A stretch of DNA of 64,000 bases from Alphaproteobacteria bacterium (GTDB lineage Bacteria; Pseudomonadota; Alphaproteobacteria; Micropepsales; Micropepsaceae). The stretch is from NCBI GenBank assembly GCA_015654635.1, contig JAATGP010000009.1, positions 1 through 64,000 of the forward strand, given 5' to 3'. The notes beneath the pieces are model-generated. The model was not told the DNA's origin. It searched no databases and saw only the letters and a list, made by a program, of their open reading frames with translations. Both the position numbers and the translations under genes were made by a program. Shown one piece after another: positions 64 through 8,527 of this stretch. Each line of letters opens with the position of its first letter. Positions within the stretch are counted from its first letter, which is position 1.

Positions 64-471
64 ATGGAATGGGTTTCAATTCTCGCAAATCTTGGCGGTA
101 AGATCTTCGATCACATCTTCCCCGATCCGGAGAAGGCGAACGAGGCCAAGCTAAAGCTGTTCGAGATGCAGCAGAATGGCGAGCTGGCAAAGTTGGCAGC
201 TGACACTGATCTTGCGAAAGCCGCCGCAGGCATCGTTCTGGCGGAAGCGCAGAGCAAGAACTGGTTGGCGTCGTCCTGGCGCCCGATCACGATGCTGATC
301 TTCGTCGGTCTCATCGTGGCGCGCTGGTTCGGCTGGACCGCGCCGGGTCTGTCAGAACCCGAAGTATTGGAGCTGTGGGCAATCGTAAAGATCGGTATGA
401 GCGGCTATGTCATCGGCCGGTCAGTTGAGAAGGTGGTGCCCGATGTCGTTGCTGCCATGAAGGCGAAGTAG
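64..471 (+). CDS. phage/GTA-type three-TM holin family protein
   Basis: This 135-residue protein has the layout of the 3TM holins found with prophages and gene transfer agents, which permeabilise the inner membrane so lysis enzymes can escape. Residues 20-66 form a charged, Ala/Lys/Glu-rich helix. The family-typical SWRP motif (71-74) then leads into a hydrophobic segment (about 75-90), and a second one follows at about 104-119. The AAAGGAG upstream of the ATG is a good ribosome binding site. No capsid, tail or lysin gene is within the 63 bases upstream or in the DNA downstream, so it is either the last gene of a prophage lying to the left or a remnant. The holin family call is fairly secure; the exact export role is not. 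Confidence 0.72.
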   Translation: MEWVSILANLGGKIFDHIFPDPEKANEAKLKLFEMQQNGELAKLAADTDLAKAAAGIVLAEAQSKNWLASSWRPITMLIFVGLIVARWFGWTAPGLSEPEVLELWAIVKIGMSGYVIGRSVEKVVPDVVAAMKAK

Positions 472-487
472 GCTACAAACTACATAT

Positions 488-3394
488 CTAGTGAGCTAGT
501 CCGGTCGGCAGCGTTGAGCTGTCATCGACATCGCCATCCTGAAGGGTCATCATGTCGACTACGATATTTTTGTCGTTAAGCAATTGCTGCAGTTCGGCAA
601 CGCGCCGAGTCACGAGGGCCGAGGCCGGCTCCATGACCGCAAGCGTAACGACATCCGGGCGAATTCGCTTTGCCAATTCCGCCAACTTCACAACATTGAT
701 GCGCGCGCCTGACGACTTGGCTTCGCATAACCGCACAATGCCATCTGAGACTATCAATAGATCGAGCTCTGCGTCCGGCTTGTTTTTATCGATGCTGGCT
801 TCCGAATAGTATAGATCGTGGGATTCGAGGAAGTAGAAGGACGCTTTGGCTTGTTGACAGCACTTGGTCAAGCACCAAATGACCGGCAGAAGTCCTTGCT
901 CCCGCAGGCCTTCGGTGACGAAGTTATTCAGTTTGAAGTACCACGGATCTGCGACTGGCGCCGGCGATGTTGTACCGCATATCTCACAAACGAGCGCGCG
1001 CTCCAACTTGTCAACGCTAACCCAGTTATTGTTATAGCATTGTGGGCAGCGCCATTCGTGGCCCTGGTGGAGAATTTCGTTTTGGCAGAGATAGGTTAAT
1101 GACTCTATCAGTGACCGCCTTTCATGCGCGTCCCAATCGTCAGGTGCTGCGGCCGGGTTAGCGGCTTTATAAGCCTCTCCAAATGCTTCGAACTCGTGCG
1201 TTACTCGATCTAGAAAATCCTGCACGCCATTTTCCTCACGCGGCGCCGCGCGGTCGCGCGTCGCCCAATAGGCATTTTGGAAAGCGCAGAATTGAGCTAG
1301 GAGTTCGTCGAACCGCTCGCGTTCTTGTCTTGCTTTGCGTGCAACACCGTCTTGTGCCATCCAATAAGCTTCGCGGAAACTATCGAATTGCTGCACGAGC
1401 CGATCAAAGCGAAGGTAGCGGGTCGGGACGCGTTCGGCGCGAGCTTCGACGATGACTGTTTGTGCCAGCTTTACCCAGTCTTCCTCGCTGGCGAGCTGAC
1501 CTCGAGGAATTCGTCGTTTCAGGTGCTTCTTGACCTTTTCAACGCGATCAACGGTTGCCTTCGGCGTTGCGCCCAACGCTTCAAATTGCTGTTTCCAGAA
1601 TCCCGAAAGAAAGATCTCCCTCGCGTCGCGAACGCTACCAGACATGCGCAGAAGCGCCGTCAGATACCGACCTTTATCAGATGGACGTATGTCCAGCATC
1701 AGCCCGGGCTTCGGATCGATCCGTCCGTGTTTGAATGGTATCCAATCTCGGGGAGCAGCCAGCGCATAGCGGAAGGCTATCTCATCGGTTGGTACGCGGA
1801 GCTCTGGCGGGCTACCTTCTACTCCGATCGTAACACTGAGTAGCCCTTCATCGGTTGCGCGCGGCATACAGATCGGACCCATGCCGTGGAGCTGATAAGC
1901 GCGAGTGAAAGCTCCTGCCATCCGCAGCCGACGCGGGAGACGCCAGCGATGTTGAATGTTATCATACCAGCTGTGATCAACGTTCCGCTCGATATCAATA
2001 TCCACATTCCAGAGGCCCACTTTGGTGCTACCGGGCATCTGTGGTGTATCCCGGATATGGCGTGGCAACAAAACTGGCGGTCGGAATGTTGTTTCCGTGA
2101 TAGTCAGTTCTCGCCAGTCGCTAGTCTGAAAAGGCGCACCAGGCATAACGTGATGGCGCGCGTGCCAAAGGCCAGCTTCTGTCGGGACCGGCGCGTCCAC
2201 CGAATCCATTCGCTCCGGCGCGTAAATGTTGAAGCGGTCTTCCGCTTGAAGCCGGGCAGCGACAGCGCGAAGTTCCTCTACCGAATGGCTGGCGGAGCGC
2301 ACCATAATCTGGGATTGCGATGCAGCACCGCCCAGAGGCACGTTGATCCGATTTTTGATTATTGCCGCTATAGCAGCGAAGCGTGCGGCATTGTTCAGAT
2401 CGTCCTGCGAAACCTTTAGTGTGACGACGTTGCCGTCGATCCAGGCCGGTAGATGATGGGCTCCATTCCAAAACGCGATCCGGTCGGCAAAGGAATCGCC
2501 AACCACGAAGTTGACCGTGCGAGACCAGGACATTTCGCTGAACTCTATGCGTGGTGTAAGGCAAGCAGACAATTGCGCCAACCCGCGGAGACCAGTGCGG
2601 CTAATACGGTCTATGAGTTCCTGCTCGGTTGCAACAACTTCGCCGAGTGCCTTCGGCATGATTCGTGGATCGTCTTGAATGGCCTGTGGCACAAAAATTG
2701 TGGGACTAAGTAGACCAACCATGTCCGGGGCGATCGGCCATGGACTGAGGCTCTGGCCATAGCAGCCGAAGTTCTCCTGCAAAAACAGTGATGGTGGGGT
2801 GCCCAGTTGAGTATCAACTAGCGCAATTGGGCCGGGCGCGGAGATTGCGTTGCCCCGCGTCAACACCGCCGTCACCGACAAGACAGATAGCGGAACGACC
2901 GGCAAGTGCGGGCGAAACGCTTGGCGATCACGATCTTGGCGATGTTGCAGACTGTGTTGCACCAGAAAGGCTGGACCGAACTGTTCATGTAGCCGTTCAA
3001 CTTCCCGGTCTGGCAGGCTTACATAGGAGTAAACGATATCGGCATCGTAGGCTCGAAGCCAGGAGAGGTAAGCCGGGCGGATAACTCCGTTTTCGCAGGG
3101 GACAATTAGACTGAACCTGCCTCCCCAGCGTCCATAGGAATCTGCGAAGATCGCTTCGAGCATGGCTCGCCAGTGCTCGTGCTGGTCCACAAGGAACGCG
3201 ACCCGTATCGGACGCGGGCGCATATACGTTTTTGCGGATGCCATTAAAGGTCCCTCGTCGATCAATCGCCAACCTTCGATCTCGATTTTCGCAGGAAAGT
3301 AGTGATTCGATAATAGCCGCTTTTGGCGCACCGCTGCCCAACGATCTATGTCCTTTTCGGGCGGCTTGAACTTACCGTTCAGAGTGGGTCGCAA
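488..3394 (-). CDS. large zinc-ribbon / PD-(D/E)XK nuclease-like protein, unknown function
   Basis: I do not recognise the 968-residue protein as a named family. The N-terminal two thirds contain an alpha/beta stretch (about 56-240, beginning RVAFLVDQHEHW) with no motif I can assign. Residues 662-750 hold three copies of an FDxLxxxFxxFxxAY unit spaced about 32 residues apart. A zinc ribbon follows (C783, C786, C803, C806). The C-terminus carries ELD (876-878) and EAK (891-893) separated by a short hydrophobic strand, the spacing of a PD-(D/E)XK nuclease core. The start is TTG with a weak ribosome site; an internal ATG at residue 51 is the alternative. It is divergent from the DUF2971 gene with about 92 bases between them, which suggests a shared control region. 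A DNA-targeting defence role is inference only. Confidence 0.75.
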   Translation of the reverse strand: MRPTLNGKFKPPEKDIDRWAAVRQKRLLSNHYFPAKIEIEGWRLIDEGPLMASAKTYMRPRPIRVAFLVDQHEHWRAMLEAIFADSYGRWGGRFSLIVPCENGVIRPAYLSWLRAYDADIVYSYVSLPDREVERLHEQFGPAFLVQHSLQHRQDRDRQAFRPHLPVVPLSVLSVTAVLTRGNAISAPGPIALVDTQLGTPPSLFLQENFGCYGQSLSPWPIAPDMVGLLSPTIFVPQAIQDDPRIMPKALGEVVATEQELIDRISRTGLRGLAQLSACLTPRIEFSEMSWSRTVNFVVGDSFADRIAFWNGAHHLPAWIDGNVVTLKVSQDDLNNAARFAAIAAIIKNRINVPLGGAASQSQIMVRSASHSVEELRAVAARLQAEDRFNIYAPERMDSVDAPVPTEAGLWHARHHVMPGAPFQTSDWRELTITETTFRPPVLLPRHIRDTPQMPGSTKVGLWNVDIDIERNVDHSWYDNIQHRWRLPRRLRMAGAFTRAYQLHGMGPICMPRATDEGLLSVTIGVEGSPPELRVPTDEIAFRYALAAPRDWIPFKHGRIDPKPGLMLDIRPSDKGRYLTALLRMSGSVRDAREIFLSGFWKQQFEALGATPKATVDRVEKVKKHLKRRIPRGQLASEEDWVKLAQTVIVEARAERVPTRYLRFDRLVQQFDSFREAYWMAQDGVARKARQERERFDELLAQFCAFQNAYWATRDRAAPREENGVQDFLDRVTHEFEAFGEAYKAANPAAAPDDWDAHERRSLIESLTYLCQNEILHQGHEWRCPQCYNNNWVSVDKLERALVCEICGTTSPAPVADPWYFKLNNFVTEGLREQGLLPVIWCLTKCCQQAKASFYFLESHDLYYSEASIDKNKPDAELDLLIVSDGIVRLCEAKSSGARINVVKLAELAKRIRPDVVTLAVMEPASALVTRRVAELQQLLNDKNIVVDMMTLQDGDVDDSSTLPTGLAH

Positions 3395-3486
3395 AAACGC
3401 CCATGGCGGTCATATTAGACTGCCCAACGAGGAGCGGATATTACGCACAAAGCATGCAGACGTCGGTATAAATTAGGGTGGTCAGA

Positions 3487-4149
3487 ATGCGCGCTTATCA
3501 TTTCGTTGAGACTCAATGGGGATTGGAAGACCTCCGACATCGTCGGCTCAAAATCGCGACGCTAAAACAGCTAAACGACCCATTTGAATTCTATGGGGCG
3601 AATCTCTCCGACCCAAAGCTGCGACGAGCATTTCGCTCGATGAAAGAACAGATGGCGCTGAATAGAGGGATGCTATGCTTTAGCCGCAACTGGAAAAACC
3701 CGGTGCAGTGGAGCCACTATGCAGAAAAGCATAGAGGCCTATGCTTAGGTTTTGACATTCCAGACGAGCACCTCGGGATTGTTAATTATTCGGCAAAGCG
3801 ATTTGCCATAGACGCACAAAAGCTTCTCAATCCTTGCGATCTCGACCCAAAAACGGCAACGGCGCTTCTGTTTACAAAATACGCTCATTGGCGTTACGAG
3901 AATGAAGTCCGTGTCTTCGCTGAGCTGAATGATGTCGATCCGAACAGCGGCCTCTACTTCGCGGAATTTTCCGATAAACTGAAGTTAACTGAGGTAATCG
4001 TGGGGCCGCAATCGGAATTGGCGGAGCGCGATCTCATGGGCGCGCTCGGAGAGCTTCGCGACGGCGTTGACGTATTCAAAGCCCGGTTAGCGTTTGGCTC
4101 GTTCAATGTTGTAAGGCAACGCGACAGGAAACTATGGTGGCCTGATTAG
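3487..4149 (+). CDS. DUF2971 family protein
   Basis: A 220-residue soluble protein with the DUF2971 pattern: an N-terminal YHF/ETQWG start, the LNDPFEFYG motif (about 31-39), a CFSRNWKNPVQWSHYA block (about 63-78), HRGLCLGFDI, and a C-terminal HWRYENEVRVF motif. The biochemical activity of this family is not known to me; it is common in accessory and mobile regions. ATG at 3487 is preferred over GTG at 3478 because an AGGGTGG ribosome site lies five bases before it. The gene is divergent from the large nuclease-like gene, so the two may share a promoter region and work together. The family assignment is good; the partnership is inference. Confidence 0.75.
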   Translation: MRAYHFVETQWGLEDLRHRRLKIATLKQLNDPFEFYGANLSDPKLRRAFRSMKEQMALNRGMLCFSRNWKNPVQWSHYAEKHRGLCLGFDIPDEHLGIVNYSAKRFAIDAQKLLNPCDLDPKTATALLFTKYAHWRYENEVRVFAELNDVDPNSGLYFAEFSDKLKLTEVIVGPQSELAERDLMGALGELRDGVDVFKARLAFGSFNVVRQRDRKLWWPD

Positions 4150-5051: not shown

Positions 5052-5816
5052 ATGTGTTGCGCTGGTATGGGGTCGACGATGGGGGCCGAGGGCGCAAAAT
5101 ATATCGAGGCATTGGATTTTATCGATAGGATCAAGGACATCGGCACAATCGATGGGTTGGTCGTCGAGTTCCAAGCGCTGATTTTGCGCTATGGCTTTAC
5201 CTCGTACTGCGTTGGCAACGCCACGGCGCCGAAATCGGACGTAGCGGACCGTGTTTGGTGTGCCACTTGGCCAAAGGGGTGGGCGTCCGTCTGGGTCCAA
5301 CAGAACTTCGCGGCTGTTGATCCGGTGGTTTATCAGCTCCTCGCCTCGAAGCTTCCCTTTCGCTGGTCAGATATTCGCGATTCCAACGGTCCTCGCGGTA
5401 CGGAGGTTATGAACGTCGCCGGAGAGTTCCAGCTTCGTGACGGTATGGGCATTCCCGTCATTGCCCTGAATGGAAGCCGGGTTGGGGTTACCATTGCGGG
5501 GGGGCAGTTCGATCTTAGTGACCGGGAGAAATCGTGCTTGCATCTGGCGGCTATTTACTTTCAGGCGCGGCTCGAAAAACTCCGTGCCAAGGGACCTGTC
5601 GTAAAGCGTAAATCGGGTGACGAACTCACCGTTCGCGAGCTCGACTGCTTGGCATGGATTGCGGCCGGAAAGACCGATTGGGAGATTGCACAGATTCTTT
5701 CGATCAGCGAGCTCACGGTGACGTCTCATGTTCGGAACATACTTCGCAAGTTGAATGCGATGCATCGTGCCCAGGCCGTTGCCAAAGCAATCGTCGCTGG
5801 AATGATCGCTCTTTAG
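5052..5816 (+). CDS. LuxR-family quorum-sensing transcriptional regulator
   Basis: Two domains are visible: an autoinducer-binding domain (about 22-175) and a LuxR C-terminal HTH (about 190-250) with the ELTVRELDCLAWIAAGKTDWEIA and SELTVTSHVRN-type blocks. The ligand domain keeps the W, the DP pair (AAVDPVV), the later W (FRWSD) and the GMGIPV glycine. However, the Tyr four residues after the first W is replaced by Trp (GWASVW). It lies 188 bases upstream of a LuxI-type synthase on the same strand with a lux-type dyad between them, so it should be the cognate receptor. ATG 5079 has a better-placed G-rich ribosome site than ATG 5052, so the true start may be 27 bases later. Confidence 0.88.
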   Translation: MCCAGMGSTMGAEGAKYIEALDFIDRIKDIGTIDGLVVEFQALILRYGFTSYCVGNATAPKSDVADRVWCATWPKGWASVWVQQNFAAVDPVVYQLLASKLPFRWSDIRDSNGPRGTEVMNVAGEFQLRDGMGIPVIALNGSRVGVTIAGGQFDLSDREKSCLHLAAIYFQARLEKLRAKGPVVKRKSGDELTVRELDCLAWIAAGKTDWEIAQILSISELTVTSHVRNILRKLNAMHRAQAVAKAIVAGMIAL

Positions 5817-5905
5817 AGTCCGGCGAGCGGCTCCTGTTTTCCTCTTTGCGACGGCTGATCCGATCACATCGATCGGGCATGGGCCTTATCCGTATGATTG
5901 GCCAA

Positions 5906-5921
5906 CAAGTCGTACAACTTG
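5906..5921. promoter_or_regulatory. lux-box-like dyad upstream of the LuxI-type gene
   Basis: CAAGTCGTACAACTTG is an inverted repeat with seven of eight position pairs complementary (consensus CAAGTnGTACnACTTG). It lies between the LuxR-type and LuxI-type genes, ending 82 bases before the synthase ATG. Its length, symmetry and position match binding sites of LuxR-family regulators, which normally sit just upstream of the promoter they activate. Binding by the adjacent regulator is inferred. Confidence 0.7.
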
Positions 5922-6003
5922 CAGTAAAGCAATCCTCCTTTTCGAGGATGGTACGCTACATCTTCAATGGGTCATCCTTTCAGCGATCTTGGGAGGGCGA
6001 AGC

Positions 6004-6700
6004 CATGCTTATGGAAGTTGTCACGCGGGAAAATCGTGCACTGTACGGCGATCAGCTCGAGGCGATGTACCTCATGCGCCACCGCATCTTCGTCGAGCGC
6101 ATGCACTGGGAAGGTATCCGCAAGCCGGATGGTCGGGAAATCGACGAATTCGACAATGATGACGCTATATACCTTTTGGTGACTGACGACGACCAAGTGT
6201 GTGGCTGCCATCGGATGATTCCGACAATGAAGCCGCATTTGCTCTCGGAAGTGTTTTACGGAGAGTGCGAAGTGAGAGGTGTCTTGCGTGGCCCGCGCGT
6301 TATCGAGTGTGGGCGCACCTGCATTGAGGCCGAGCGGCTTCCGCGCGACAGACTTAGAATCGCGCGCCGCGTTCTGATGACTGGGTTGATGGAATTCTGC
6401 TTCAAGATCGGCGCCACGCATTTCACTGGCATTAATCCCGTCGCCGTGATGAGCCATTATCTGAAACTGGATTGGGACATTCGACCGCTCGGAGCGCCGC
6501 GTACGATGGAGGACGGCGAAACCTATGTCGCCGTGTCCTATGCCGTGAGCGAACAGGCGCTCGCATCGGTCCAAAGGGTGTACAAGCTCCCCAAGGACCT
6601 TGTCGTCTATCGTGGCGGTTCGACGCCATTGGCCGCGCTTCTTGATGCCGAACAAGCACCCGGCCGCATGCCACCTGCCAGAGTATTAGCTGCTGAATGA
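6004..6700 (+). CDS. LuxI-family acyl-homoserine-lactone synthase
   Basis: The enzyme makes an acyl-homoserine lactone from S-adenosylmethionine and an acyl donor. The family's invariant residues fall at almost canonical numbers: R25, F29, W35, D47, D50, R70, E101 and R104 (in RHRIF, MHWEG, EIDEFD, CHRMIP and IECGRT). The chosen ATG has GGAGGG about ten bases upstream; the frame is open further upstream but runs through the regulator's 3' end and the lux-type box. Length is 231 residues, slightly long for the family because of a C-terminal tail. It is followed by a small gene overlapping its stop. The acyl chain cannot be predicted from sequence. Confidence 0.93.
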
Positions 6701-7967: not shown

Positions 7968-8222
7968 ATGAGCCGTCTCACCATTGATATCACCGATCAG
8001 CAGCACCAGAGCCTGAAAGCCTTGGCCGCGCTGCAGGGTAAGACAATCAAGCAATATGCCATCGAGCGCCTTTTTGCCGCCCATTCGGACGGTGATCAGG
8101 CATGGCAGGCGTTGAAGGCGCTGCTGGGGGAGCGGATTGCCGAGGGGCTCAGCGGCAAGGTCTCCACCAAAAGCATCGAGGTCATCGTGGACGAGGAACT
8201 GGGCGGAGATAACCGCGCTTGA
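7968..8222 (+). CDS. ParD-like ribbon-helix-helix antitoxin
   Basis: An 84-residue protein with an N-terminal strand-helix-helix (SRLTIDITDQQHQSLKALA, then GKTIKQYAIERLF, about 2-40) typical of RHH antitoxins. An acidic C-terminal tail (VIVDEELGGD) would wrap the toxin. The ATG at 7968 is inside a longer open frame; the start is chosen because the RHH fold begins exactly there and the operator dyad ends 18 bases upstream. It overlaps the toxin gene by four bases, the usual TA arrangement. It should neutralise the toxin and repress the operon. Confidence 0.82.
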   Translation: MSRLTIDITDQQHQSLKALAALQGKTIKQYAIERLFAAHSDGDQAWQALKALLGERIAEGLSGKVSTKSIEVIVDEELGGDNRA

Positions 8223-8527
8223 CCACCGATTATATTTTGACGGCGGCAGCGGAAGCCGACTTGCGAGAAATCATCCGCTACACGCGCAAGCAATGGGGCG
8301 ATGCGCAGGTGCGCAGCTATATCGCCAAGCTGGAAGGCGGCATTGCGCGCCTTGCGGCGGGAGAGGGTGCGTTCAAAGACATGACCGCGCTCTATCCCGC
8401 GCTGCGCATGGTCCGTTGCGAGCATCACTATATCTTCTGCCTGCCGCGTGACGACGCGCCTTCGCTGGTCGTCGCAATTTTCCACGAACGCATGGATTTG
8501 ATGCTGCGGCTGGCGGACAGGCTCTAG
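8219..8527 (+). CDS. ParE/RelE-superfamily toxin
   Basis: A 102-residue protein with the ParE/RelE layout: an N-terminal DYILTAAAEADLREIIRYT helix block, QWGDAQVRSYIAKLE, a central basic strand (MVRCEHHYIFCL), and the closing ALVVAIFHERMDL-like strand and helix (here SLVVAIFHERMDLM). It starts at TTG overlapping the antitoxin stop (TTGA), so the two are translationally coupled. ParE members poison gyrase and RelE members cleave mRNA; the family features here fit ParE slightly better but sequence alone does not settle it. Confidence 0.82.
   Translation: MTTDYILTAAAEADLREIIRYTRKQWGDAQVRSYIAKLEGGIARLAAGEGAFKDMTALYPALRMVRCEHHYIFCLPRDDAPSLVVAIFHERMDLMLRLADRL

Follow-up and report, generated by a model that had tools for sequence, protein, structure and literature searches.

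The Can2, Card1 and VC1899 nucleases (PF09002, Card1_endonuc), which are ancillary to CRISPR, carry an alpha/beta domain N-terminal to a nuclease of the PD-(D/E)XK fold. Shedu is a single-gene PD-(D/E)XK defence nuclease (DUF4263) with an unassigned N-terminus, found in defence islands. Here we describe a large gene near the start of contig JAATGP010000009.1 (GenBank assembly GCA_015654635.1), from an alphaproteobacterium of the Micropepsaceae; the stretch analysed, positions 1 to 64,000, is referred to as the window. The predicted product resembles Can2, Card1 and VC1899 in its C-terminal PD-(D/E)XK fold, with E-x-D ... E-x-K in register, and in the alpha/beta domain that precedes the nuclease. 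It differs from Can2 and Card1 in being more than twice as long, in having a Cys4 zinc ribbon and in an N-terminus that is not recognisable as CARF. With Shedu it shares the combination of a single gene, an unassigned N-terminus and a PD-(D/E)XK nuclease. On its sequence, however, the protein is not filed in the Card1/Can2 or the Shedu family, since neither PF09002 nor DUF4263 gave a match. The window protein and four relatives were without a match to either at E <= 1 in Pfam, the window protein was likewise without a Shedu match in PADLOC, and PF09002 was not found at E <= 0.001 anywhere in the window's genome. Pfam, PADLOC, PHROGs and NCBIfam held no family name for the protein, nor did the available portions of the literature returned by searches with the accessions of two relatives and on the Gamma-Mobile-Trio, Card1/Can2 and Shedu.

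We propose that the gene encodes a solitary, single-gene sensor-nuclease that mobile elements carry as cargo and that serves defence or competition between elements, a reading to which we assign a probability of roughly 0.55. The single gene is probably self-sufficient. In this scheme the N-terminal alpha/beta module would sense a trigger (a ligand, a modified nucleic acid or a component of the invader), the signal would run via the middle helices and the zinc ribbon to the Can2/Card1-like domain, and the activated, metal-dependent nuclease would nick or degrade nucleic acid, either invading or total. Should the protein prove to be a defence nuclease, bacterial immunity would gain a family that has no name, consists of one gene and is easy to test. 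A second point of interest is what a nuclease like Can2/Card1 might sense without a recognisable CARF domain and, as here, with no CRISPR system noticed alongside.

Domain layout and conservation

A preliminary description of the window had reported an open reading frame (ORF) of 968 codons beginning with TTG (488-3394, minus strand), with four zinc-ribbon cysteines and an ELD...EAK core. The frame and both motifs are present, but the TTG start is probably wrong. The true coding sequence probably begins at ATG codon 51 (window position 3244), giving a protein of about 918 amino acids. This start is favoured by a Shine-Dalgarno-like box, GAGGGA, in front of the ATG, by several homologues that begin nearby (others being listed from their longest frame), and by the low predicted local distance difference test score (pLDDT < 50) of residues 1-51 in the AlphaFold2 model. 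Residue numbers keep the 968-residue frame throughout. The features of the gene are as follows.

488..3244, minus strand: large sensor-nuclease-like protein, about 918 amino acids (frame, homologue starts, AlphaFold2, conservation)
2075..3241, minus strand: predicted N-terminal alpha/beta domains, residues 52-440 (AlphaFold2, conservation)
1082..2074, minus strand: middle region, residues 441-771, short beta segments followed by helices that lead to the zinc ribbon (secondary structure of the model)
956..1060, minus strand: Cys4 zinc ribbon, C783, C786, C803 and C806 (conservation of the cysteines)
530..937, minus strand: predicted C-terminal PD-(D/E)XK nuclease domain, residues 820-955 (model, fold and profile comparison, conservation)
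716-769, minus strand: nuclease core, E876-x-D878 and E891-x-K893 (alignment)

The window copy is the single match in its own genome and the only one among 385 genomes of the class. Three of the 96 genomes of the order matched, counting the window's own and a weak match of 72 residues (G010, in a genome 74% complete) that was left out of later counts. At the level of the phylum, 6/398 genomes matched, and 9/398 with a broader profile, the window's own included in both and some of the matches to the broader profile being weak or fragmentary. Patterns built from single proteins matched no relative in the viral or genome contig collections; the alignment query was needed, and it matched 15 genome-contig loci and one viral contig. 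Three plasmid records also matched, and a distant relative used as query added two more records. Neither the window protein nor the distant relative L045 had a match in the phage record collection, and L044 and L046 had none among the plasmids. Searches of PDB sequences with the large protein returned nothing, or weak zinc-finger matches only. We worked with 25 loci outside the window (L006, L007, L009-L024, L044-L048, L083 and L084), treating near-identical pairs as one locus (L005 with L006; L008 with L015). L046 and L047 lie at the ends of short contigs, L046 being cut off before the nuclease and L047 before the N-terminus; L012 has no downstream flank. The relative in L021 is split into two frames and that in L022 is truncated, as expected of decaying island cargo.

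We aligned the window protein with 22 relatives, leaving out L021, L022 and L084. The four zinc cysteines are kept in all 23 rows. The nuclease core was counted in the 22 rows extending as far as the C-terminus: D878 and E891 never vary (22/22 each), and E876 and K893 are each kept in 21 of 22, with D in L044 and T in L048, respectively. The zinc and core motifs are not chance occurrences, being kept across an alignment in which some relatives have an identity of about 16-19% to the window protein. The ribbon does precede the core, not directly as had been thought but by about 70 residues. Conservation extends to the N-terminus (R61, R64, GG91-92, D119, D304, W309 and N310), where G92, D119, W309 and N310 are found in every row that covers them. 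Distant members share the same order of elements: an N-terminal WGG-like segment, an FWN segment, the Cys4 ribbon and the nuclease core.

Fold and profile comparisons

The AlphaFold2 prediction, which used 15 family sequences, gave a model of the whole protein with a pLDDT of 76.3 and a predicted template modelling score (pTM) of 0.73. Its C-terminal domain has the restriction-endonuclease-like alpha/beta fold expected of the PD-(D/E)XK superfamily, and the acidic pair and the E-x-K that characterise the core strands in that superfamily are conserved. Fold comparison by VIA-align was run on 1000 Foldseek candidates, against a background in which models without relatives typically reach Z scores of 7-8. 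The first 12 rows were all Can2, Card1, Cdn1 or VC1899 chains, with Z from 7.1 to 9.8. The best was 8bao_A (Z 9.8, root-mean-square deviation (rmsd) 3.7, 161 residues aligned), and the rows included 6xl1_A (Z 8.9, rmsd 3.1, 146 aligned) and 1xmx (Z 8.3, rmsd 5.9, 199 aligned). The repair endonuclease 2vld came next (Z 6.6, rmsd 3.1, 98 aligned), and everything below it scored 4.7 or less, including the restriction enzymes EcoO109I (4.6) and BsoBI (4.4). Thus, in the fold search that the preliminary description had suggested, Can2, Card1 and VC1899 were the nearest solved structures among the Foldseek candidates.

We also compared the C-terminal profile of the family with a Card1 profile. PF09002 was found at nine loci in 8 of 150 genomes; eight sequences were aligned, and L042 was left out as doubtful. 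The profile-profile score was 34.8, a value not equalled in any of 200 column shuffles (maximum 24.1), and the reversed profile scored 13.1. The comparison places E-L-D and E-A-K on the N-E-x-D and E-C-K motifs of Card1, with the catalytic residues in register. An E276A/D278A double mutant of Can2 lacks activity (PMC7969007). Set against the C-terminal profile of the family, one Mrr sequence reached 11.5, an uneven comparison with the 34.8 of an eight-sequence profile. As a prediction from model, profile and conservation, a C-terminal PD-(D/E)XK nuclease joined to a large N-terminal region of no assigned family is well supported, in agreement with the preliminary description, and the large protein may act as a metal-dependent nuclease. 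The zinc ribbon itself gave a weak Pfam match to zf-Sec23_Sec24, below the cut-off.

One of the PF09002 loci deserves separate mention. In L043 (901-1878), an otherwise different frame of 326 codons has its PF09002 domain after a Cys4 zinc-ribbon-like stretch, possibly a parallel arrangement of zinc ribbon and Card1 domain, to judge from the sequence.

Residues 52-440, modelled alone, gave a pLDDT of 80.7 and a pTM of 0.86, with strands alternating with helices; on the model they may be read as two alpha/beta units. When the two halves were compared with each other, 22 columns aligned with a score of 22.6. The best VIA-align rows for this region were cell-wall/S-layer proteins of Clostridioides difficile (5j6q, Z 7.1, rmsd 5.3, 231 aligned); models that lack relatives reach such values, and the likeness was not used. 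The module may have a sensor role, by analogy, because its position matches that of the sensor part in Can2-like proteins. This order of an alpha/beta N-terminus and a C-terminal nuclease, together with the nuclease fold, could also mean that the protein is a Card1/Can2 relative detached from CRISPR that still answers cyclic oligonucleotides via a diverged N-terminal domain. Such an origin appears very unlikely, as the N-terminal profile scored no better against five CARF regions than shuffled profiles did (hhalign, 16.7, where 100 shuffles reached up to 20.4) and PF09002 gave no sequence match. Tentatively, the WGG...D...FWN module might instead represent an undescribed class of sensor in control of a non-CRISPR nuclease of the Can2/Card1 type. 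The proteins would then form a single-protein immune family without a name, spread over the integrative elements, plasmids and prophages of Pseudomonadota, one member being from a record titled Candidatus Marinimicrobia.

Neighbourhoods of the relatives

When ORFs were clustered across 23 loci, including the window, no family apart from the large protein itself occurred in more than four, and the large protein is thus without a fixed partner. A joint scan of the 115 ORFs within about 5 kb at 18 loci found six integrase, three resolvase and two phage capsid members among the best 25 of 117 families listed. The same scan with PADLOC gave restriction or candidate defence families among the best 25 of 102 listed; type III CRISPR was not among these 25.

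Tyrosine recombinases, annotated or detected with Pfam, lie within 5 kb of the relatives in L006, L009, L044, L045 and L048, and a crude motif scan alone places a recombinase within that distance in L015 and L021. Some are close, with an integrase about 30 bp upstream of the large gene in L044, another about 100 bp downstream of it in L045, a resolvase adjoining the relative in L014 and L017, and three annotated recombinases preceding the large gene on Burkholderia glumae plasmids. Such proximity would suit an accessory nuclease of the mobile element itself, which partners the neighbouring recombinases in integration, transfer or maintenance. However, the recombinases are of different types (tyrosine and serine), their order and strand vary, no recombinase family occurs in more than four of the 23 loci, and at most other loci none turned up within 5 kb in the crude scan. 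We therefore regard an element-serving role as unlikely. The crude scan, a regular-expression search, gave a false match within the large gene of the window, and integrases detectable with Pfam in L009, L044 and L048 escaped it.

Defence and other mobile genes were also seen near the relatives: an integrase and RepB in L009, Mrr and HNH proteins in L011, a phage major head protein in L015, a TniQ-like gene in L020, and toxin-antitoxin genes adjoining the relatives in L007 and L083. A type IIG enzyme adjoins the relative in L017; in L016 a fragment of a specificity subunit adjoins it, with type I restriction-modification genes 6-7 kb off. These restriction genes (in L016, within 8 kb) and the position of a zinc ribbon near a PD-(D/E)XK core raise the possibility of a restriction-type enzyme, like those of type II or IV, whose N-terminal half reads sequence or modification directly and senses no ligand or second messenger. 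This seems unlikely: no methyltransferase family is shared by more than two of the 23 loci (the type I and type IIG proteins of L016 and L017 cluster together), and Pfam recognised no target-recognition domain in the window protein or in the four relatives scanned.

Several points weigh against a sensor-nuclease carried as mobile cargo. Neither the whole model nor the N-terminal region gave a Foldseek match at E <= 0.001, and VIA-align shows only chains that Foldseek had listed. The best Z, just under 10, exceeds only moderately the values reached by models without relatives. The Card1 profile match spans 68 columns, with an hhalign probability of 61%. With regard to the neighbourhoods, most other loci showed no recombinase within 5 kb in the crude scan, a TetR regulator adjoins the relative in L018, and a metabolic gene is next but one in L012. 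The enrichment in mobile and defence genes is an impression from examples without a control of random loci, and not a measured rate.

The organisation of L048 is an observation in its own right. Between 3712 and 11814, an integrase, a protein of 1226 amino acids that is AAA_16-like (below the Pfam cut-off) and the large nuclease, in which T replaces the catalytic K, are all encoded on the same strand. A gap of about 10 bp separates the end of the AAA-like gene from the nuclease gene, and the two may form an operon.

The DUF2971 gene and the surroundings in the window

The gene divergent from the large gene had been put forward as its partner in a two-gene defence module. The features concerned are as follows.

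3487..4149, plus strand (GTG at 3478 also possible): DUF2971 protein, PADLOC candidate PDC-S31 (Pfam, PADLOC)
3245..3486, no strand: intergenic region of about 242 bp between the divergent genes (choice of starts)

The DUF2971 ORF (3478-4149, plus strand) is present, and its product matches Pfam PF11185 (E 9.6e-7) and the PADLOC model PDLC04991 (E 8.6e-25). The latter describes PDC-S31, a candidate single-gene system with DUF2971, so that the match is to the neighbour and not to the large protein; a role in defence has candidate status in PADLOC. The genes are indeed divergent, but with ATG starts at 3244 and 3487 the gap is about 242 bp and not about 92. A literature search pairing DUF2971 with phage found nothing.

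We surveyed the pairing in both directions. DUF2971 was found near 1 of the 25 relatives, in L083, a plasmid of Bradyrhizobium barranii; among L001-L031 the window alone had it, and it was found in none of L044-L048 and not in L084. In L083 the two genes are not adjacent, but stand four genes from each other at a distance of 2.7 kb. The DUF2971 protein of L083 is the best match to that of the window among the plasmid matches listed (46.5% identity), and the island also holds an abortive-infection gene, a pair of ATPase and S8 peptidase genes, and a toxin-antitoxin. The reverse survey covered ten DUF2971 loci (L077-L083 and L085-L087), drawn from high-ranking plasmid and class matches with near-duplicates skipped, nine at 34-47% identity and one at 32% over part of the protein. 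A relative of the large protein was near one of them, again L083. DUF2971 is common, in 21 of the 96 genomes of the order and in 415 plasmid records, yet it was missing from both other genomes of the order that match the large protein (one by the weak G010 match, in the 74% complete genome). A whole search of the genomes or records of 15 relatives showed that five carry DUF2971 somewhere, none of them in the fetched flanks.

A joint module could draw on the divergent arrangement in the window and on the L083 island, whose distant relative of the large protein was found by a search made without DUF2971. Nevertheless, with co-occurrence at 1/25 and 1/10 loci, one and the same locus, and with DUF2971 widespread in the order but in neither other genome matching the large protein, we regard such a module as highly improbable and judge the DUF2971 gene to be a neighbour that is independent of the large gene and no partner to it. 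Most simply, both genes are read as cargo of defence-rich mobile DNA. The survey suggests that the apparent pairing is an effect of the clustering of defence genes in islands. The survey of homologues thus bears out defence or mobile genes near several relatives, and not a recurrence of DUF2971. In addition, Shedu is annotated next to one DUF2971 relative.

The remaining features of the window are as follows.

64..471, plus strand: holin-like gene at the contig edge (GTA_holin_3TM, phrog_3427; PF11351, E 6.9e-16)
7968..8222, plus strand: ParD antitoxin (PF09386, E 2.1e-33; start from sequence)
8219..8527, plus strand: ParE toxin (PF05016, E 6.8e-14)

The holin and the toxin-antitoxin pair, from which an island had been proposed, are both recognised by Pfam, but the left side of that island is out of view, as base 1 of the window is base 1 of the contig. 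Nothing convincing was found as an att-site repeat near the tRNA-Thr. Also in the window are a gene at 5052-5816 that we take to be LuxR-like and, within the frame 5654-6700, what is presumably a LuxI-like acyl-homoserine-lactone synthase, both named from their protein sequences.

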